Shown here piece after piece: positions 7,569-28,912 of a DNA stretch of 33,613 bases. Positions within the stretch are counted from its first letter, which is position 1, and the number at the start of each line of letters is the position of its first letter. A program made the translations under genes and the position numbers. Below the pieces are notes generated by a model. It saw only the letters and a list, made by a program, of their open reading frames with translations. It ran no database searches and had not been told where the DNA came from. Origin of the DNA: a virus. The stretch spans positions 1-33,613 of the IMG/VR virus record IMGVR_UViG_3300018009_000011, one strand, 5' to 3'.

Positions 7569-7892
7569 GTGTCTCGACACATCCACCAGCGCTGCGTCCG
7601 GATCACAAATCCTCTGCCCGATGGCAAGACTTACACCAGCGGGCGGCGCGCCAGGCGCTATGTCGACGAGGAGCGGGCCCGGTGGACCGACGCGTCGGAG
7701 ACGGTGATCGAATTCATTATTTCCCATCGGCACTACCGCGCAGCGCGGTGGAGGCAGTGCGTCGTTACGGCGGTGATGGAGGGGGACTCGGGGATGGCCA
7801 CGTTGGCGGGAATTCGCGGGATTCCGGTGATCAACCCCATCGAGCTGATCACCGATCGTTCAAAGCGAAGGGTAAAACGGAAGGCAGCATGA
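7569..7892 (+). CDS. Hypothetical basic protein
   Basis: The 107-residue frame starts at GTG. The front ('RCVRITNPLPDGKTYTSGRR') and a helical middle ('ETVIEFIISHRHYRAARW') look protein-like, and it ends with a basic tail (RSKRRVKRKAA). Its stop overlaps the ATG of the secreted cohesin/dockerin-like gene (ATGA), implying coupled translation. No family is recognised. Confidence 0.5.
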   Translation: MSRHIHQRCVRITNPLPDGKTYTSGRRARRYVDEERARWTDASETVIEFIISHRHYRAARWRQCVVTAVMEGDSGMATLAGIRGIPVINPIELITDRSKRRVKRKAA

Positions 7893-8515
7893 AAACACTT
7901 TTGCTTATAGTGGCACTGGGCGCCGCGGCACTTAGCGGGCAGACCATCACCATCACCGGGCCGAATGCCAACGTCAAGGCGGGCTCGGCCGTCGTGTTGA
8001 CGGTGACTCTCTCCGGATCGGCGGGAGTGAACGTGCAGGCCCTGCAGTACAGCATCACCGGCTTCCAGGGCTGGACGGTGGCGGTAGCGGACGGCGCCGC
8101 GGCGACCGCCGCCAGTAAATTCAACACCTGCGCCATGGTGGGCACGGTGCTCAACTGCATCGCGGTGGGCGTGAACACGAATGTCTGGAGCGATGGAGTC
8201 ATCTCGACGCTGACACTGACGATTCCCAAGAGGGCGGCGAGCGGGACTCAGACCGATACGTTGGGCGGGTTATTGGGAGCTGTCACCGATTCGAGCGGAA
8301 ATGTGACGGGGGTGGCGATCACGGCGGGCAGCCCTTTCGCCTTAAGCATCATTAGCCCGTGCGACGGCATCACCCTGGCGCAGATGCTGCCGCCGGTGCT
8401 GGGCACCGCGGCATACAGCGCAGCGTTGGATTTGAACAGCGACGGCGTGGTGAACGTCGAGGACGCGCAGATCGTGGCGGATTATTCCGTCTCCGGCGTC
8501 TGTGCGGCTAACTGA
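7889..8515 (+). CDS. Secreted cohesin-like / dockerin-like protein
   Basis: The 208-residue product starts at the ATG that overlaps the upstream stop. Residues 1-18 are a Sec signal peptide ('MKTLLLIVALGAAALSGQ'). Residues about 20-155 form an all-beta, Gly/Thr/Ala/Val-rich domain with cohesin-like features: 'VKAGSAVVLTVTLSG', 'VNVQALQYSITGFQGWTVAV' and 'WSDGVISTLTLTIP'. Residues 181-192 are a dockerin/EF-hand calcium loop, D-x-N-x-D-G-x-x-N-x-x-D ('DLNSDGVVNVED'), as in one half of a type I dockerin. Cohesin and dockerin modules bind each other in extracellular complexes. A secreted or surface role is inferred, for example altering the cell surface of a lysogen. It is unusual in a phage. Confidence 0.7.
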   Translation: MKTLLLIVALGAAALSGQTITITGPNANVKAGSAVVLTVTLSGSAGVNVQALQYSITGFQGWTVAVADGAAATAASKFNTCAMVGTVLNCIAVGVNTNVWSDGVISTLTLTIPKRAASGTQTDTLGGLLGAVTDSSGNVTGVAITAGSPFALSIISPCDGITLAQMLPPVLGTAAYSAALDLNSDGVVNVEDAQIVADYSVSGVCAAN

Positions 8516-9169: not shown

Positions 9170-9820
9170 ATGCGCGCGGCGATCTACGCCCGGGTGAGTA
9201 CCACGGACCAAAACTGCGGAATGCAGCTGCGGGAGCTGAGGGAATATGCCGCGCGGCAGGGTTGGGAAATTGCCGGCGAGTACGTGGATACGGGTTGGTC
9301 GGGCTCGAAGGCCAGCCGGCCCGAGCTGGACCGGTTGATGGCGGACGCGGAGGCGCGGCGGTTCGACGCGGTCATGGTTTGGAAGCTGGATCGATTTGGC
9401 CGGTCTGTTTTGAACCTGCTGGAGGGGCTGCGGAAGCTGAGGAGCTGGGAGGTCCGGTTCCTGGCGCCCTCGCAGTCGATCGACACCGATGGGGCGAATC
9501 CGACCAGCCAGCTGCTTTTGCATATTCTGGCGGCCGTTGCTGAGTTTGAGCGGGAGATGATCCGGGAGCGGGTCAAGGGGGGCATGGAAACCGCCCGGCT
9601 GAAGGGTAAGGAGTGCCACCGGCCCTGCGCAGTGTTTGACGTGGAACGGGCCATAAGTCTTTCTGCTGGCGGTCTTTCGATCCGCGCCATCGCGCCTCTG
9701 CTGGGCGTGTCGCGGTCGGTAGTGGCGCGCGCGCTGGCTGTCCCAGAAGGTCGATTAAAAGGCGCGGTTTCGGCCCAGGTTGGCGTTGTCTCAGAAGCTT
9801 CACCTTCTGGGACAGCTTAG
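9170..9820 (+). CDS. Serine recombinase (resolvase/invertase family)
   Basis: This 216-residue protein cuts and rejoins DNA through a serine-phosphate intermediate. The catalytic domain starts at the N-terminus with 'YARVSTTDQ' (Ser10 nucleophile), followed by 'VDTGWSGSKASRPEL', 'VWKLDRFGRS' and the long E-helix 'AEFEREMIRERVKGGM'. The C-terminus (about 165-190, 'GLSIRAIAPLLGVSRSVVAR') is the Hin-like HTH. At 216 residues it is slightly longer than classic resolvases/invertases (about 185-195) and far shorter than large serine integrases. AGGA spaced two bases from the ATG supports the start. It could resolve dimers, invert a segment, or replace the broken tyrosine integrase. Confidence 0.92.
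   Translation: MRAAIYARVSTTDQNCGMQLRELREYAARQGWEIAGEYVDTGWSGSKASRPELDRLMADAEARRFDAVMVWKLDRFGRSVLNLLEGLRKLRSWEVRFLAPSQSIDTDGANPTSQLLLHILAAVAEFEREMIRERVKGGMETARLKGKECHRPCAVFDVERAISLSAGGLSIRAIAPLLGVSRSVVARALAVPEGRLKGAVSAQVGVVSEASPSGTA
9737..9816. repeat. Short inverted and direct repeats at the recombinase 3' end
   Basis: GCTGTCCCAGAAGGT at 9737-9751 is perfectly inverted at 9802-9816. A third imperfect copy in direct orientation (TTGTCTCAGAAG, 9786-9797) matches 10 of 12 bases. They lie in the last codons of the recombinase gene and overlap its stop. Candidate roles are binding or crossover sites for the recombinase, or a transcription terminator (15-bp stem, 50-base loop, no clear T-run). Confidence 0.6.
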
Positions 9821-19595: not shown

Positions 19596-20849
19596 GTGCC
19601 GAATCAATACCTGAACACCAATTGGGTGTGCATGAAAATCCTCCGGCGCCTGGTCAACAGGCTGGAGGTAACGGAGTACTTCGATCGGGACTGGGAGGGC
19701 GAATTCGAGCGAGAGTTCGCGCCCGGTGCCAACATCACGGTGAAGTTCCCACAGCGGTTCACTGTGACGGACGGCATGGGTTACCAGCCGCGGCCGCTGA
19801 ACCGCATTTCCACCACGATCTCTCTGGATCAGTGGCTGCAGGTGGCGTTCGAATGGGACGACTACGAGCGCGCGGTGAAGTTGGAGCGGTCGGAGGAGGA
19901 GTTGGAGGAGAATTATTTCGATCCTGCCGGCGACGCCTTCGCGCAGGAGTACGACTCGCGTTGCGCGCAGTTTGCATATCAGAACGCCTCGCAGGTCACT
20001 GGTGTGTTGGGTACGGATCCGACGACCGTCGGTTTCTTTTATGCTGCACGGCGGCTGTTGAAAGAGATGGCATGCCCGCCTGGGAAGCGCGGGGCCATGA
20101 TCAGCTCGTCCGCGATGTACAACCTGGGCGCCGCCACGGGCGCGGGTTCGATCGTCACCATGTTCCACCCGGATGACGAAGTGACGCGCATGTTCAAAGA
20201 AGGCTCGATTGGCAAGGTTGCCGGCTTCTCGGCATTCGAATCGAATTCCCTGTGGTCGCACACGGCGGGCCACTGGGCTGGTGCGGTAACGGTTTACGGA
20301 TCCGGCCAGAGTGGCACTTCGCTGGTGATCACGGCTAGTGCCGGCGACACCTTCAAGGTGGGCGACAAGTTCAGCGTGCTGGCGGTCAACCGCGTCAATC
20401 CGATGACTAAACGATTGGCGGGGCCGGCCACAGTGCGCAGCTTCACGATCACGCAGGCTCTCACCGCGGTCGGTGGCGCCGGCGCGGACACAATTAACTT
20501 CCTGCCGCCGCTGTATGGACCGGGCAGCGATTATCAGAACGTCGACGCACTGCCGCTGACCACTGCGGCACTGACGTTGTGGCCGGGCACAAACGCTCCC
20601 AACGACAAGGTGGGAACGGTCGGGCTGGCTCTTTCTCGGTTCGCGTTCGCTCTGGTTTCCGCGAAGTTGTACCTGCCGAAGGCGGTTGAATCGGCCGGCC
20701 AGGCGCGGGATCCGGATACGAAGATCGCGATCCGCAAGGTCAAGGTATGGGATGGCATGCGGTCGATGGAGATTAATCGTATGGACTCCCTCATGGGCAC
20801 TGGCAATCTGTATCAGGATGCCGGGGCGGTGGCGCTGGCCTGCGCCTAG
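19596..20849 (+). CDS. Major capsid protein, P22 coat (gp5)-like
   Basis: This 417-residue protein starts at GTG, four bases after the scaffold stop. Typical P22-coat features are the front 'ILRRLVNRLEVTEYFDRDWE', 'GANITVKFPQRFTVTDG', 'RISTTISLDQWLQVAFEWDD', 'CPPGKRGAMISSSAMYNL', 'GKVAGFSAFESNSLW', and a C-terminal beta region ending in 'KVWDGMRSMEINRMDSLMG'. The length is close to P22 gp5 (430). It adopts the HK97 fold with an inserted domain and forms the icosahedral shell. It is the most abundant virion protein and the best marker of the lineage. Confidence 0.93.
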   Translation: MPNQYLNTNWVCMKILRRLVNRLEVTEYFDRDWEGEFEREFAPGANITVKFPQRFTVTDGMGYQPRPLNRISTTISLDQWLQVAFEWDDYERAVKLERSEEELEENYFDPAGDAFAQEYDSRCAQFAYQNASQVTGVLGTDPTTVGFFYAARRLLKEMACPPGKRGAMISSSAMYNLGAATGAGSIVTMFHPDDEVTRMFKEGSIGKVAGFSAFESNSLWSHTAGHWAGAVTVYGSGQSGTSLVITASAGDTFKVGDKFSVLAVNRVNPMTKRLAGPATVRSFTITQALTAVGGAGADTINFLPPLYGPGSDYQNVDALPLTTAALTLWPGTNAPNDKVGTVGLALSRFAFALVSAKLYLPKAVESAGQARDPDTKIAIRKVKVWDGMRSMEINRMDSLMGTGNLYQDAGAVALACA

Positions 20850-20911: not shown

Positions 20912-21892
20912 ATGAAAAAACTCTCGCAGTACCTTATCGCCTCTTTGGTCGCGCTGATGACGCTGTGCTCGCAGGCATTCGCTCAGGCGGCCCTCACATA
21001 CACCACCACTTCCGCCGCTGTGGCGGACAGCAAGACGCAGACCATTCCTCTGGCCTCAGTCACGGGAATGACGGCGCGGACGACTCAGATCTACATCGAC
21101 AAGGAGTTGATGGACGTCAACGTCGTCAATACCGCATCTGTCTCGGTGCGCCGCGGCGCCGCCGGCACGATGGCCACCGCCCATGCTTCGGGCTCCATCG
21201 TGTATGCGGGGCCCGCAAACTATTTCAGCTCGTTCGACCGCTCGGTCGGCAGCTACTGCTCCAGCACCACGGAATTGGTGCTGCCAGTGATCAACGTCAA
21301 GAGTGGCAAGACTTTTGATTGTCAGAGGAGCGTTTGGGAAGAAGGCACCCAGGTGAACGTGGCGACGGTTTCACTGTCGCTGCGCGTCTCCCACCACATC
21401 GTAAGCATCAACTATGCCGGCGTGGTGAACACAGGGTCGGTGAGCGTGGTTGCCCAGCGCGGGCTGGCGCAGATCGGCTCGACGACCACCCTAGCGAGTG
21501 GCTATGTGTACGGTAGCGAAGGCAAGGCACGTCTGGACGGTACTATGACGGGCGGCTGGGTCTTCGGCACGATCGGTCAGTTGGATATTTCCAACGCGAC
21601 GCTGACCTCTGGGTCGCACCTCGGCGGCCTGTGGAGCGACGCCGGCGCCACCGGCCCGGCTGTGAGCTGCACGTTCTGCGATGGCCTCGTGGTCACCAAC
21701 ACGACCGCGACGACCTTCAACTCCGCCTTCTATGTGTATTCGAAGGCCGGGTATCTCTTCGACCTGTCGAACAACGGCAGCGCGTTTATCAATGGCAGCA
21801 CCGGGACCTCCGGTTCCGTGACCGGCTATCTGAAGATCAAGATCAACGGGTCGGACGCCTATATCGCGTACAAGGGCACGCCGGGTACTTAG
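20912..21892 (+). CDS. Signal-peptide-bearing putative virion/decoration protein
   Basis: This 326-residue protein has a clear Sec signal peptide, residues 1-24 ('MKKLSQYLIASLVALMTLCS', then cleavage after 'QAFA'). Residues about 35-102 form a beta module ('IPLASVTGMTARTTQIYIDK', 'SVSVRRGAAGTMATAHASG') that also occurs near the front of the tail spike at 23374. The rest is Gly/Thr/Ser-rich beta sequence ('TLASGYVYGSEGKARLDG', 'GSVTGYLKIKINGSDAYIAY'). It sits directly after the coat gene, where decoration or minor head proteins are usually encoded. The exported nature is puzzling for a virion part; alternatively it is displayed on the infected cell. 'ACAGGAAGA' precedes the ATG. Confidence 0.7.
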   Translation: MKKLSQYLIASLVALMTLCSQAFAQAALTYTTTSAAVADSKTQTIPLASVTGMTARTTQIYIDKELMDVNVVNTASVSVRRGAAGTMATAHASGSIVYAGPANYFSSFDRSVGSYCSSTTELVLPVINVKSGKTFDCQRSVWEEGTQVNVATVSLSLRVSHHIVSINYAGVVNTGSVSVVAQRGLAQIGSTTTLASGYVYGSEGKARLDGTMTGGWVFGTIGQLDISNATLTSGSHLGGLWSDAGATGPAVSCTFCDGLVVTNTTATTFNSAFYVYSKAGYLFDLSNNGSAFINGSTGTSGSVTGYLKIKINGSDAYIAYKGTPGT

Positions 21893-21900
21893 GGCGCCGC

Positions 21901-22158
21901 ATGAAGCTGTTCGTTGTATTTTTCATCCTGGGCGGGCTCCTGCTCGCCCAGGCCCCTTCTCCCACGCCGGCGCCGCCCGCTATCACCAGAGAGCAGTTAC
22001 AGGCGCGGCTGGAGGATCTCCAGCACGGGAAAGAGCAGGCCATCGCGAATGTGAACGCGTTCGTGGGAGCCATTCAGGAAACCCAGCACTGGCTGGATGA
22101 GCTGAAGGCTGCCGAAGCGAAGCCCGCAGCAGCGAAGCCCGGCCCTCCGGCCAAGTAA
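21901..22158 (+). CDS. Small secreted or lipoprotein-like coiled-coil protein
   Basis: The 85-residue product starts at ATG eight bases after the previous stop. Residues 1-17 are a signal peptide ('MKLFVVFFILGGLLLAQ'), followed by a Pro-rich linker ('PSPTPAPPA'), a coiled coil (about 28-70, 'REQLQARLEDLQHGKEQAIA', 'IQETQHWLDELK') and an Ala/Pro/Lys tail. There is no lipobox Cys. The layout (leader plus periplasmic helix) recalls spanin or Rz-like subunits, but the position in the head operon argues for another use. Confidence 0.65.
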   Translation: MKLFVVFFILGGLLLAQAPSPTPAPPAITREQLQARLEDLQHGKEQAIANVNAFVGAIQETQHWLDELKAAEAKPAAAKPGPPAK

Positions 22159-22165
22159 CCGCTCT

Positions 22166-22654
22166 ATGCCCATGAATGAAGCCGGTTCCTACCGACAAAG
22201 CAATCTCACCGCACAAGAACAGAGAGAGGCCGAGGCCGCTCTGTACGGCCTCGAGGTAAACAACAGCATGACACCGCAACCATCCACTTTTTCCCAGGAC
22301 GATATCGAGCGCATGCGCGCGATCCTGAGAGCTCACGACGCCGCCGCGGGCGGCGTAGTGAAGGAATTTGATCTCAACAAGCCGGCGCCGGTTCCTTATC
22401 GTTACCGGGAATTTCCAAAGCTGGTTTACGACCACACCAAGCGCACCCACAAGGCGGTCCACGACCGCGCGCAGGAGCAGGCGGCGCTGGAGGCCGGCTT
22501 CCAGAACGAGCCTTATCCCAGCGAGGTTGTCGAGCTGGCTCTGGATCCGGAGGACCAGAACGAGGTGAACGACCTCGAGTCCGACATCAGGGCGCGGGGT
22601 CGTTTGGAGCGCGCCAGGCCGAAGGCGAAGGGCGCGGGCGCAGTCAAGGAGTAA
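22166..22654 (+). CDS. Hypothetical head/tail-joining region protein
   Basis: This 162-residue hydrophilic protein has a helical front with 'QDDIERMRAILRAHDA'. The middle 'VPYRYREFPKLVYDHTKRTH' and 'EQAALEAGFQNEPYP' form a strand-helix pattern common in small phage proteins coded near connector genes (YPK.lY......v.s..e..al..Gw...P). The C-terminus is charged. It lies just upstream of the gp4-like gene. The role is unknown; position suggests a virion or assembly protein. Confidence 0.6.
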   Translation: MPMNEAGSYRQSNLTAQEQREAEAALYGLEVNNSMTPQPSTFSQDDIERMRAILRAHDAAAGGVVKEFDLNKPAPVPYRYREFPKLVYDHTKRTHKAVHDRAQEQAALEAGFQNEPYPSEVVELALDPEDQNEVNDLESDIRARGRLERARPKAKGAGAVKE

Positions 22655-22658
22655 GTCC

Positions 22659-23351
22659 ATGCTGGTGTCGGATCTCATCACCCAGGCCTTCCTGAACCTG
22701 GGGACCATCACCGTCCTGGAGACGATTTCGACGGGAATGCAGACGGACGCATTCCCAAAGCTCAACGCGGATGTCGATTCGCTGAGCGCGGAAGGGCTGG
22801 TGGTTCCAAATCAGGTTGAGCAGATTTTCAGCTTGATCCAGAACCTCACGGCCTACACGGTCGGCGCTGCTGGCTCCTGGCCGACGGCGTCAGGGCAGCG
22901 CGCGCTGAAGATCATTTCCTGGAGGGCGTATTACGGTAATGTGCTGCACTCCGGGGGACGCGTGCTCTCGCTGCCGGAATTCGGCGAGCAGGCGCAGCAG
23001 ATCCTGGGCGAGAATACGCCGATTCCTAAGATCCTGGGTGCAGACACCGCTTATCCGTTGATCAACGTGCGCGTGTTTCCTCCCACCGGCAGTCCGGCAG
23101 GGTACGTTGAGCTGGGGTATCTGCTGGCGATCGCAAACTTCGCGACCGTCAACGATTTGATCAGTCTGCCGCAGGGCTGGTTGCAGCTCCTGGCCTGGCG
23201 CCTGGCCAGAATACTTTACCCGCTATATCCGAGCCCCAGCAGGAAGGATCTTATCTGGGACATGGCTGATCGCGCCAAGCAGGGTCTGCTGACGGGGGCC
23301 ACTATGACCGCTCCGCAGCCCCAGCCCGCCGCTCCGCAAGGCCAGCGGTAG
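22659..23351 (+). CDS. Tail accessory factor / head-closure protein, P22 gp4-like (first copy)
   Basis: This 230-residue protein resembles P22 gp4, the ring that extends the portal and seals the filled head. Diagnostic stretches are 'VSDLITQAFLNLGTITVLET', 'FPKLNADVDSLSAEGLVV', 'NLTAYTVGAAGSWP', 'RVFPPTGSPAGYVELGYLL', 'SLPQGWLQLLAWRLARILYP' and a C-terminal helix 'DMADRAKQGLL'. P22 gp4 has 166 residues; the fit is at the fold/pattern level. A second gp4-like gene (25809) lies beyond the spike gene, so the connector may be two-layered. Confidence 0.75.
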   Translation: MLVSDLITQAFLNLGTITVLETISTGMQTDAFPKLNADVDSLSAEGLVVPNQVEQIFSLIQNLTAYTVGAAGSWPTASGQRALKIISWRAYYGNVLHSGGRVLSLPEFGEQAQQILGENTPIPKILGADTAYPLINVRVFPPTGSPAGYVELGYLLAIANFATVNDLISLPQGWLQLLAWRLARILYPLYPSPSRKDLIWDMADRAKQGLLTGATMTAPQPQPAAPQGQR

Positions 23352-23373
23352 AAGGTAAAAGGTTCACACCTCC

Positions 23374-25809
23374 ATGCTTCGATTCCTCTCTGTAATTCTC
23401 TTTGCGTGCTCCCTCTTCGGGCAGACCAGCAGCTATCCGGGGGCGATCGACAACGACAGCACGCTGTTCGTGACGGCTGACAATGTGCAGACGCAGCTCG
23501 CCGCGGCGATGGCCGTTGGGGATTCGGGGGCCTCGGTTATTTCGACCTCCGGCTTTGTCGCGAATATGCTGGTCACGGTCTGCGACACGATGGCGAACAC
23601 GGGCAAGTGCACCGCCTGGGAGGACATGCTGGTCACTTCGATTTCCGGATCGACTCTCAATGTGACGCGGGCGCAGGCGGGAACTTCAGTGCGGGCGCAC
23701 GCGATCGGGGCGTTTGTATCGGTACTCATCGATTCGGCCCACCAGAGAGCCCTAAAATCGGCAGTTCTCGCGCTGGAGACCACTCTCGGAGCGAATTTGG
23801 TCAACGCGCAGGGCTCATTCAGGAGTGCAGCAAGCTACAACTTCACAGCGCAGACTCCTGGCGGCACGCTGGTGCAGAGCGGCGCCAATCAGGCGATTAC
23901 GCTGACTCCTTGTCCGCTGGGGGTGAACGGCACCGACAAAAACCACATGGTTTATCTCTCGGGCGGCACGGGCACGGCAGAGGGCACGCCGATCACCGGG
24001 GGCACTTGTACTTCGGGCGCGGCGACCGGAACTATTACGGTAACGCCGGCGCAGGGGCACTCCGGGGCGTGGACGGTTCAGAGTGCGACGGGCGGGATCG
24101 AAGAGGCTATGTCGGCCCTGCCGGCGGCCGGCGGCACGGTGGTGCTGCCAGCGGGGAACGTGAATCTGTATGGCAACCCCGGTTTGACGCTGGGCAACGG
24201 CGTGGGCACGACGCAATCCACCGTAAACAACATTCTGCTTCTCGGGCAGGGGTTCAGCTCGGCGAATCCCTCTTTTAGCTCGGCCAGCGTCTTGACCTAT
24301 GCGGGCGTGAGCGGCGGCACGGCAGTGCGCATCCAGGGGCCGGCTAACACCATGAGGCTGCAAAATGTCACCGTCGACGGCGGGGGGCTGGCAAGTATTC
24401 TATACGACCACTTCGCCTGCGCAAACTGCGGGCTGGAGGCCGTGACGCTGCGCAACATCGCGGCCGGCGGGATCGCCCACCGCATCGACGCGGTGGCGGA
24501 CTATAACGGGAACAGCGCGCATTCCTTCTTTCGTGACGTGAATGTGACGGCGCTGGCCTCGGGGGCGTCGTGCCTTCAGATCGGCCCCACCGCGCTGAAC
24601 TACAACGCCGGCAACTTCTCGAACCTGTTTGAGAATTACAACTGCACTTACGCAAACGATGTAGCCGGCTCCTACGGCGTGCAGCTGGGGTGGGCGGACA
24701 ATAACGAGTTTCTGCACAGTTCTTTTGTCGCCAGTGCTCAGCCCGGCGCCGGATATCCGCTGGTGCACGTGCGCCAGGCCGGGACTTACAGCTGGCTGCC
24801 GAGCGAGAACGTCTTCAACCACGTAAATCTGGGCTGCGTCACCTGTCTGCCCATATACGGGAATTCGGGATCCGGCATCGGCACGATTTTTTCGGATTAT
24901 CAGGTGTTCGACAGCTCGGGGCTCCCGGCGCAGGGAGCGGTGAAAAACCTTCGCGGGCAGCTGCACAACGGTGACTGGTTCGACACGGATACCACGTCTC
25001 GATTTAATTTTCAAAACCTCCTGACGATCTACTCCGCATCAAGCTTCGCCATGCTGCGCTTTCCTGGATACACCGGCTCAACCGACGCTGGCGCCACCCT
25101 GCAGACGACCGGCACGGCGGTGGTGGGGACTAACTCGCACTTTCTCACCAAGCCCGGCAAGGGGCGGATGATCGTGCTCAGTAACGAGCTGCGCTATCTG
25201 GCCTCGGTGAGTGACGACACGCACGCCACGCTCAACCAGGCTTTCACGGACGATGCACCGGCGGGCACGAGCTACTTATATCAGGTGGGAGCCAACGGCT
25301 ATATTTACACGGACTCAGCGGCGCACCTGGGCACGCAGGACGCCTCGCCGGTGCGGATCGACCCGGGAGCAATCACCGCCATCCAGGCGCAGTACAACGC
25401 CACCAGCGGCGGCGGCGACGTGGGGGTGTCGGGAATCTTCTCGGCGACCGCGGCGGATACCGGGCTGAGCAATGGCGGCGGTAATACGCTCACCGCGGCC
25501 ATGCTCATCGGTGGCCAGATCCGGCGCACCGGCGGGGGCGCGCAGACCGACACCACCGACACGGCCGCCAACATCGTGGCCGCGATCCCTAACTGCCAGG
25601 TCGGCCAGATTTTCCAATTCGTCATTTACAACAACTCGGGCGGCCAGCACGTCCTTGGGCTGGGCTCGGGCGTTACAGCGGCGGCCGGGCTGACGCCCAC
25701 GCTGACCACCGCCAACACATACGCGCACGCCTTTCAGCTGCGCGTCACGAATGTGGGCGCTGGATCGCAGGCGGTAGCGATTTACAGCCTGGGAAGCGGG
25801 GCATACTAA
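23374..25809 (+). CDS. Tail spike-like beta-helix protein with signal peptide
   Basis: This 811-residue protein has a Sec leader at 1-17 ('MLRFLSVILFACSLFGQ'). Residues about 45-120 contain the module also found in the 20912 product ('EDMLVTSISGSTLNVTRAQA' then 'AHAIGAFVSV'). Residues about 220-560 are a right-handed beta-helix of the pectate-lyase type: 'IEEAMSALPAAGGTVVLPAG', repeated V-x-I/L-x-N turns ('LQNVTVDGGG', 'LEAVTLRNIAAGG', 'EFLHSSFVAS'). The C-terminal ~110 residues form a separate beta domain. Such proteins bind and often cut host surface polysaccharide. The signal peptide is very unusual for a spike. The gene lies between two gp4-like genes. Confidence 0.8.
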   Translation: MLRFLSVILFACSLFGQTSSYPGAIDNDSTLFVTADNVQTQLAAAMAVGDSGASVISTSGFVANMLVTVCDTMANTGKCTAWEDMLVTSISGSTLNVTRAQAGTSVRAHAIGAFVSVLIDSAHQRALKSAVLALETTLGANLVNAQGSFRSAASYNFTAQTPGGTLVQSGANQAITLTPCPLGVNGTDKNHMVYLSGGTGTAEGTPITGGTCTSGAATGTITVTPAQGHSGAWTVQSATGGIEEAMSALPAAGGTVVLPAGNVNLYGNPGLTLGNGVGTTQSTVNNILLLGQGFSSANPSFSSASVLTYAGVSGGTAVRIQGPANTMRLQNVTVDGGGLASILYDHFACANCGLEAVTLRNIAAGGIAHRIDAVADYNGNSAHSFFRDVNVTALASGASCLQIGPTALNYNAGNFSNLFENYNCTYANDVAGSYGVQLGWADNNEFLHSSFVASAQPGAGYPLVHVRQAGTYSWLPSENVFNHVNLGCVTCLPIYGNSGSGIGTIFSDYQVFDSSGLPAQGAVKNLRGQLHNGDWFDTDTTSRFNFQNLLTIYSASSFAMLRFPGYTGSTDAGATLQTTGTAVVGTNSHFLTKPGKGRMIVLSNELRYLASVSDDTHATLNQAFTDDAPAGTSYLYQVGANGYIYTDSAAHLGTQDASPVRIDPGAITAIQAQYNATSGGGDVGVSGIFSATAADTGLSNGGGNTLTAAMLIGGQIRRTGGGAQTDTTDTAANIVAAIPNCQVGQIFQFVIYNNSGGQHVLGLGSGVTAAAGLTPTLTTANTYAHAFQLRVTNVGAGSQAVAIYSLGSGAY

Positions 25810-26968: not shown

Positions 26969-28912
26969 ATGAAGCTCCCTCTCGTCGGTCAAAGTCACCT
27001 TCTGCGTTCGCCGGCGGCTGCTTGTCAGCAGACGCAGAATTTGATGCCGCAGTTTATCGAGGACAAGAGCGAGAAGGGGAAAAATTATGGCATTCTGCTC
27101 GGCATTCCGGGGTTCCACGCCTGTATTGCAGGCCTGGGCGCGCCGGTTCGCGGGGTGTGGAACGATGGCACGCTGGTCTACGTTGTCGGCAACAACACGC
27201 TGTATCAGATCGGGATCGGCTCCTATGCGGGCGGGAATCCGTCGACGGGCGCCTGCACGGTCCTAAACTCCTATCTGCTCGACAGCACGAGCGACGGGAA
27301 TCCGGTATTCATGGCGGGGAACGGGACGCAGCTTTTCCTTGTCGCCAACGGGTACGCCTACATCGACAACGGCAGCGGGCCCGTGCGCTGCCAGTTCCAG
27401 ATCTCGGGTTACGTGAACACGAACGGGACCGATGTGGCGTGGGTGAGCGGCGACAATTTTGCGACGGCGGCCGCCGGCGACGCCATCGCGATCAACGACA
27501 CGTTTTACACCATTTCGACGGTCAACTCTCCCACCGATATCACGTTGACGGGTTCAGCCGGCGTGCAGCAGGGCGCCATGATGACGGCGGCGCTGGGCAG
27601 CTACGTCACGGCGGTGTGGGGAGCGTACCTGGACGGGTTTTTCATCGCGCAGCGTCCGGCCGGCTTTCCGATCCAGGGAGTAGTGAACACGGCGCTGAAC
27701 CAGGCGACCTGGGTTTCGGGCGCACTCTTCAATCTGCTCACGGTGGGCGAGGGCGTGATCATCGGCGGCGTCGCGTATCTCGTCACGCACATCACCTCTC
27801 CCACGGTGATGAAGCTTTACCCTTCGCCTGGCGCGCATAACGGCCTCACGCTGGATGCCGGCGTCGATCTGGGTAAACAGTTCACGATTTCGGCCGTGCT
27901 TGACGGGACGTCCTGGGATCCGCTGGATTTCGCTTCTAAAATCGGCTGTCCGGACAATCTCCAGTCGATCGCGGTGGATCACGAGCTGCTGATTTTGCTC
28001 GGCACCGAAAGCATGGAGCCCTGGCAGAACACCGGGGCCGCCCTCTTCCCTTTCCAGCGCATTCCCGGAGCGGTGAGCCGGGAGGGTTCGATGGCCCGCT
28101 ATGCGGCGACCGCCATTGCGGAGCGGGTGTTCTACCTGGGAGGCTCTCCGCGCGGCACGCCGGTGGCGTACCGGATGGACGGTTTCACGCCCGTCCGCAT
28201 TTCGACGCACGCGGAGGAGTATGCGTGGGCGCTGGGCATCGATACGCCGTCGACGGCGATCGCTTATGGTGAGGTGCACGATGGCCACCAGATGTGGGTG
28301 GTTAACTTCGCGGGCTCGCTCGGGACATGGGTCTACGACGAAACCGCGAGCGCGCAGGCAGGCGAGGCCATGTGGCATCAACGGGCCTCGTGGACAGGCA
28401 CGGCATTCGGCAGTTACACTCCGCGCTTCCACACCTTCATCCCATCCTGGGGTCCGGCCGGCATGCACATCGTGGCCGGATTCGCCGCCGGCAACGGCAA
28501 CCTATACGACCAGTCGCTGAATTATTACGACGACGCCGGCAGCTCGCAGCAGTGGCAGCGGATCCTGCCGCACCTCTACAACGCCGGCAGGCTGCAGTTC
28601 TTCGGGCGCATGACCTTGGAAATGGAAACCGGGGGCACGACCTCCGCTACGACGCAGCCGACCGTCGTTCGCGGCTATTCAGATTCGCGGGGCGCGGATT
28701 TCGCGGGCGTGACGGGCCCGGGGACTCTTCCTAATCCGGTTGCTGCGCTGATGGGGGGCTCTGGCGTGAAGGGCGCACTTACACAGCGAGTCTTTTGGCC
28801 ATCCAACGGTTCCTCTCGCGATCGGGTGTTCGCACTGGCGGGCAATAACAACGGGGTGGCGCGCACCTGTCTGATCGATCTGGATCTGGAGATGGAGTTA
28901 GAGGCGGAGTAA
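26969..28912 (+). CDS. Packaged-DNA stabilization protein, P22 gp10-like
   Basis: This 647-residue beta-rich protein has the front 'MKLPLVGQSHLLRSPAAACQ' and 'QTQNLMPQFIED', typical of the phage-stabilise family, then propeller-like repeats ('VWNDGTLVYVVGNNTLYQI', 'VTAVWGAYLDGFFIAQRPAG', 'GCPDNLQSIAVDHELLILLG', 'SREGSMARYAATAIAERVFY'). P22 gp10 has 472 residues; the longer size is accounted for by inserted beta modules. It would form the tail hub beneath the gp4 ring, where spikes and needle attach. It follows the gp4-like gene, as in P22. Confidence 0.82.
   Translation: MKLPLVGQSHLLRSPAAACQQTQNLMPQFIEDKSEKGKNYGILLGIPGFHACIAGLGAPVRGVWNDGTLVYVVGNNTLYQIGIGSYAGGNPSTGACTVLNSYLLDSTSDGNPVFMAGNGTQLFLVANGYAYIDNGSGPVRCQFQISGYVNTNGTDVAWVSGDNFATAAAGDAIAINDTFYTISTVNSPTDITLTGSAGVQQGAMMTAALGSYVTAVWGAYLDGFFIAQRPAGFPIQGVVNTALNQATWVSGALFNLLTVGEGVIIGGVAYLVTHITSPTVMKLYPSPGAHNGLTLDAGVDLGKQFTISAVLDGTSWDPLDFASKIGCPDNLQSIAVDHELLILLGTESMEPWQNTGAALFPFQRIPGAVSREGSMARYAATAIAERVFYLGGSPRGTPVAYRMDGFTPVRISTHAEEYAWALGIDTPSTAIAYGEVHDGHQMWVVNFAGSLGTWVYDETASAQAGEAMWHQRASWTGTAFGSYTPRFHTFIPSWGPAGMHIVAGFAAGNGNLYDQSLNYYDDAGSSQQWQRILPHLYNAGRLQFFGRMTLEMETGGTTSATTQPTVVRGYSDSRGADFAGVTGPGTLPNPVAALMGGSGVKGALTQRVFWPSNGSSRDRVFALAGNNNGVARTCLIDLDLEMELEAE

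Follow-up and report, generated by a model that had tools for sequence, protein, structure and literature searches.

The receptor-binding appendages of the podophage described here are probably exported by the Sec pathway, oxidised in the periplasm, and joined at lysis to particles assembled in the cytoplasm. On balance, such two-compartment virions, in which cytoplasmic particles would be completed by periplasmic Sec appendages as the cell lyses, appear to recur among phages of Acidobacteriota. Textbook tailed-phage assembly is wholly cytoplasmic and therefore has no structural disulfides, and no description of exported tailed-phage appendages was found in the open-access literature. In the proposed mechanism, podophages of soil Acidobacteriota would synthesise both kinds of appendage, capsid spikes as well as tail spikes, as preproteins of the Sec pathway, from which signal peptidase I would cut the leader to expose a glutamine that host glutaminyl cyclase would probably convert to pyroglutamate. 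The periplasm would be where the mature appendage proteins acquire their fold and their disulfides, and the cytoplasm where heads and tails are assembled as usual; holin and lysis enzymes would then mix both compartments, so that the appendages could dock on finished particles via their usual attachment domains. If this is true, Sec routing would allow phages oxidised, more stable adhesins, and the completion of the particle would be tied to lysis.

The window, that is, the whole stretch of DNA analysed, is the entire virus record of 33.6 kb (33,613 nucleotides). Its relevant features are given below, where form A denotes the type of protein encoded in the slot after the coat gene of this phage, and form B the type found in that slot in other relatives.

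19596 to 20849, plus strand: major capsid protein of the P22 coat family (PF11651, 2.2e-16; phrog_283, 4.4e-51).
20912 to 21892, plus strand: form A protein, with a leader at 20912 to 20983, the codon of the +1 Gln at 20984, and an N-domain.
21901 to 22158, plus strand: protein of 85 aa with a leader, a Pro-rich part and a likely coiled coil, directly 3' of form A.
23374 to 25809, plus strand: spike of 811 aa, with a leader at 23374 to 23421 and a form-A-like N-domain at about residues 38 to 117.
25357 to 25806, plus strand: capsid-spike-type domain inside the 23374 protein (phrog_673, 1e-11, and the form-B HMM).
7889 to 8515, plus strand: predicted exported protein with a cohesin-like and dockerin-like C-terminus (weak Pfam matches).

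As read from the DNA, with arrows marking the cut, the leaders and the residues that follow them are MKKLSQYLIASLVALMTLCSQAFA↓QAALT for 20912 (predicted site AFA↓Q), MKLFVVFFILGGLLLA↓QAPSP for 21901 (LLA↓Q), MLRFLSVILFACSLFG↓QTSSY for 23374 (LFG↓Q) and MKTLLLIVALGAAALSG↓QTITI for 7889 (LSG↓Q). All four have the n-h-c organisation of typical signal peptides, and all four place Gln at the predicted +1 position. The sequence-only reading had described normal Sec signals on these genes, and the description holds for signal peptidase I substrates, with small residues at -3 and -1 and conservation in orthologues; the common +1 Gln, the position of 20912 in a capsid-spike slot and the capsid-spike domain at the end of the 23374 protein go beyond it.

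Leaders were called with a home-made rule-based predictor, and start codons were partly chosen by the same rule; the cut sites of 23374 and 7889 were set by eye and by analogy because the predictor cuts a few residues off. The mechanical open reading frames of 21901 and 7889 begin upstream, at 21631 and 7682, and the ATG of 7889 overlaps the stop codon of the upstream gene. A purine-rich, RBS-like stretch lies upstream of three of the four genes, the exception being 21901, and all four leaders were confirmed as true gene starts. No internal start codon near the cleavage site that would give a leaderless product is present in the four window genes, which rules out internal-start artefacts. High-GC genomes do produce hydrophobic starts by chance, and 25 of 995 minus-strand ORFs scored positive as controls; at this rate, three leaders among about 14 virion genes have p ~0.005, and the 26 leaders in 26 genes of the relatives' slot, if independent, ~1e-42. 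The stricter pattern of a leader with Gln at +1 occurs in 41 plus-strand ORFs and in 0 of 1331 minus-strand ORFs. The reading of the leaders as chance hydrophobic N-termini is refuted by their conservation, and its probability is negligible.

The coat gene served as the anchor for a comparison of the slot that follows it. Coat relatives numbered 63 in viral_contigs and 7 in genome contigs, and 49 non-redundant loci were compared, with the window belonging to form A. The slot holds form A in 26 loci and form B in 14, never both, and the state changes at least six times on the maximum-likelihood coat tree, with at least three changes forced by well-supported branches. This repeated exchange in one slot argues that forms A and B do comparable jobs. 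From sequence evidence, we infer virion presence, joining at lysis, export, cleavage, pyroglutamate and disulfides, of which export and disulfides have good support. It had been considered earlier that the leaders might be absent in relatives; they are kept in all 26 form-A genes. A credible leader is found in none of the 14 form-B genes, where L024 alone gives a weak rule call, at threshold. The 25 form-A proteins aligned are 23–32% identical to the window protein, with Q25, C116 and C137 among the invariant positions, and tblastn retrieved no homologue of 20912 from phage records, in which near-identical DNA to the window was also without a match. Full-length form A is present in 1 of 297 Acidobacteriota genomes and is therefore not a common host protein. 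In five loci (L039, L040, L042, L043 and L044), extra genes of ~160–190 aa lie between the coat and slot genes, and those of L040 and L042–L044 resemble homing-endonuclease-type proteins (GRLTV...CxCG).

The leaders of form A diverge faster than the domain that follows them (mean pairwise identity 26% versus 47%), with leader properties kept, and the site [AGS]↓Q is retained in 25 of 25 proteins (-1 is A in 20, G in 4 and S in 1; -3 is mostly A, S, L or V). Cysteine never occupies +1 in form A, where Gln stands instead, ruling out lipoprotein signals. These features bear on the suggestion that the leaders are uncleaved hydrophobic anchors, held in the membrane or capsid without release. Hydrophobic stretches would be compatible with anchoring, as would the modelling of the 20912 leader as a helix, but an anchor would hardly keep its cleavage site while its sequence drifts, the leaders match host leader usage, and homologous domains exist without such a segment. 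Anchoring, one of three options raised by the sequence-only reading, is disfavoured because the +1 Gln is invariant, there is no lipobox, and homologous tailspike N-domains work leaderless from Met1; it appears extremely unlikely. Addition after lysis, another of the three, is the best fit, given that modules for virion attachment are present in the mature proteins or are replaced by them, and display on the infected cell may be an alternative for the exported proteins.

Form B has the fold expected of a capsid spike. The AlphaFold model of the form-B protein of L008 (pLDDT 86.5) was searched against the PDB with Foldseek and gave a single significant match, to the Pseudomonas phage Pa223 capsid spike (PDB 9ny6; E 5e-5; VIA Z 10.1 over 108 residues), followed by tailspike and baseplate-fibre domains. 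Its family, phrog_673 (e.g., L008:10022-10444), carries the label "head scaffolding", which is probably wrong, as the modelled fold is that of a capsid spike. The likeness to the Pa223 spike extends to the C-terminal domain family of the 23374 protein; however, form B is leaderless with almost no Cys, and form A is a different, putatively exported protein in that slot. The form-A N-domain matches a tail protein family (phrog_1101) and tail-tip proteins in the PDB (8vjh, 1.5e-10; 8rk3, 2e-4). The AlphaFold model of 20912 (mean pLDDT 54), in which only the helical leader and the N-domain are well modelled, was left out of the fold search owing to its low confidence beyond them, so the likeness of form A to the capsid spike is one of slot exchange, not of fold. 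The two types of module meet in the 23374 protein, in which the form-A N-domain HMM scores 3e-7, a middle region read earlier as a putative beta-helix follows, and the form-B HMM scores 1e-21 at the C-terminus; this predicted exported protein therefore bears both a capsid-spike-type domain and a form-A-like N-domain. No relative of 23374 was confirmed in viral_contigs, and L007 contains one partial homologue, also leadered.

The cysteine content of these proteins points to an oxidising compartment. The 20912 protein has two invariant cysteines (C116 and C137), followed by a swappable C-terminal module; throughout form A, one Cys pair is invariant and the other pairs lie in such modules, one type of which has its pair either wholly present or wholly absent. 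Mature form-A proteins contain 2, 4 or 6 Cys, an even number in 25 of 25, and the same parity holds for 16 of 16 leader-plus-Gln proteins that have two or more Cys and do not belong to form A, whereas even counts occur in 15 of 43 coat, 16 of 31 portal and 10 of 19 terminase proteins of the same loci; kinship inflates these parity counts, and the contrast with equally related controls holds. Form B mostly has zero Cys. The odd-numbered exceptions are the mature 23374 protein, with 11, and gp16 of the cultured phage Tunturi_1, with 1. From the even Cys counts together with the leaders, we infer periplasmic disulfides. The pairing also bears on a dual use of the proteins, in which part would stay in the cytoplasm and assemble there and the rest would be exported. 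Heterologous proteins are often exported inefficiently, which would favour such a split, but Cys pairing implies an oxidised functional form and 27 of 28 genes have no ATG near the site, making dual use very unlikely.

The same combination of leader and Cys pair is seen in a second type of appendage. The tail-fibre family TF of the relatives has a leader in 7 of 7 members and a Cys pair in 6 of 7. In ten further podophages, with other or unrecorded hosts, the tail spike or fibre starts with a homologous N-domain (Xanthomonas, with the PBR31 tail spike, Vibrio, Thalassomonas, Pseudoalteromonas, Rhodoferax and environmental records); unlike the TF fibres, these domains, including that of PBR31, begin at Met1, with a leader in 0 of 10 and no Cys at the TF pair positions. 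Within this N-domain comparison, the acidobacterial group is the only one to combine the leader with the Cys pair. Counting against the export reading, the window genome also encodes, at 28912, a collar-like fibre that has no leader and was recognised by eye. Tunturi_1, a cultured Tunturiibacter podophage, has five leadered genes in its virion operon (gp12, gp13, gp14, annotated as tail spike, gp16, and gp17, annotated as virion protein), four of them with Gln at +1. The stretches scanned in two other acidobacterial phages, Tunturi_3 and Tunturi_4, contain no leadered virion genes, and export is therefore optional rather than obligatory for the host group. The suspicion that the leaders form a system rather than an accident is thus borne out by the TF fibres, other acidobacterial phages and Tunturi_1. 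No mention of virion proteomics of Tunturi phages was found in the literature, and the cultured Tunturi_1 makes the claim directly testable.

The main rival to joining at lysis is a role outside the particle, in which proteins built from virion modules would be exported to the periplasm, cell surface or medium to mask receptors, exclude superinfection or degrade slime. Leaders and even Cys counts show export only, the C-termini are modular and adhesin-like, the family can be temperate, as the Acidicapsa provirus described below indicates, and spikes are known to be active when free of the virion. Signal-peptide genes among virion genes also occur in phage lambda, with Lom, and for other late-region proteins that are exported; Lom is an outer-membrane protein, not part of the particle, and has no virion-attachment domain. 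The exported proteins considered here, however, keep such domains, which makes this role less likely; moreover, the form-A gene lies within the head operon and exchanges with a capsid-spike-like gene in the same slot, and nearly all annotated large fibre candidates of Tunturi_1 are leadered. A role outside the particle is accordingly judged unlikely, and joining at lysis is preferred. Virion proteins with cleaved Sec leaders are known in the coat proteins of filamentous phages, which differ in being assembled at the membrane by extrusion and are not tailed dsDNA phages released by lysis. The head filament of phiCbK was rejected as a precedent, no signal peptide having been reported for it.

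The coat matches point to a host among Acidobacteriota. Six of the seven matches in genomes are in acidobacterial records, and one of them belongs to a provirus that lies within an Acidicapsa dinghuensis scaffold of 1.16 Mb; together with a serine-recombinase-like gene with a resolvase-type N-terminus, recognised by eye at 9170–9820 of the window, this relative suggests a temperate lifestyle. In the Acidicapsa genome (G001), Gln stands at or near +1 in 37–49% of predicted signal peptides versus 3.8% Gln overall, a figure from the home-made predictor and one genome. Glutaminyl cyclase (PF05096) is present in this genome (6e-94) and in 15 of 60 Acidobacteriota genomes, and a Q-rule in Acidobacteriota is possible on these grounds. 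The Q-rule states that Bacteroidetes proteins cut by signal peptidase I have Gln as their +1 residue, and was described in a paper that does not name Acidobacteria (PMC5837995), and genes of Porphyromonas gingivalis phages, of unknown function, obey it (PMC10367356). Such systems have in common with the window phage the +1 Gln signal peptides, phage genes fitted to host export, and glutaminyl cyclase. They differ in phylum, which here is Acidobacteriota, and, relative to the P. gingivalis phage genes, in that the proteins here resemble capsid spikes and tail spikes and have paired Cys. A signature of leader, Gln and paired Cys would find exported virion parts in genomes, pointing to acidobacterial hosts, and also offers orphan spike genes for annotation.

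The remaining leadered genes are less closely tied to the slot. A homologue of 21901 with a leader (49% identity) occupies the same relative position in an otherwise unrelated phage (L002, 7464–7802), where, as in the window, it follows the C-module of 20912. Both L002 and L003 contain runs of leader-plus-Gln genes that include this C-module; a P22-type coat gene was not recognised in either, and they may be fragments. The 7889 gene, which had been grouped with the virion genes, proved to lie in the early region, outside the virion operon, and to encode a cohesin/dockerin-like protein of 208 aa with 4 Cys. Its Pfam matches (PF00963, 0.0012; PF00404, 0.0085) score below gathering (19.5 versus 24.1 bits and 16.7 versus 22.9 bits, respectively), and no homologue was found in the relatives' loci. 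It is best seen as a separate, putatively exported accessory gene outside the proposed mechanism. At the start of the contig, positions 1–97 and 446–542 of the window form a 97-nt inverted repeat that is 99% complementary; it may have arisen in assembly or may represent a structure of the genome terminus.
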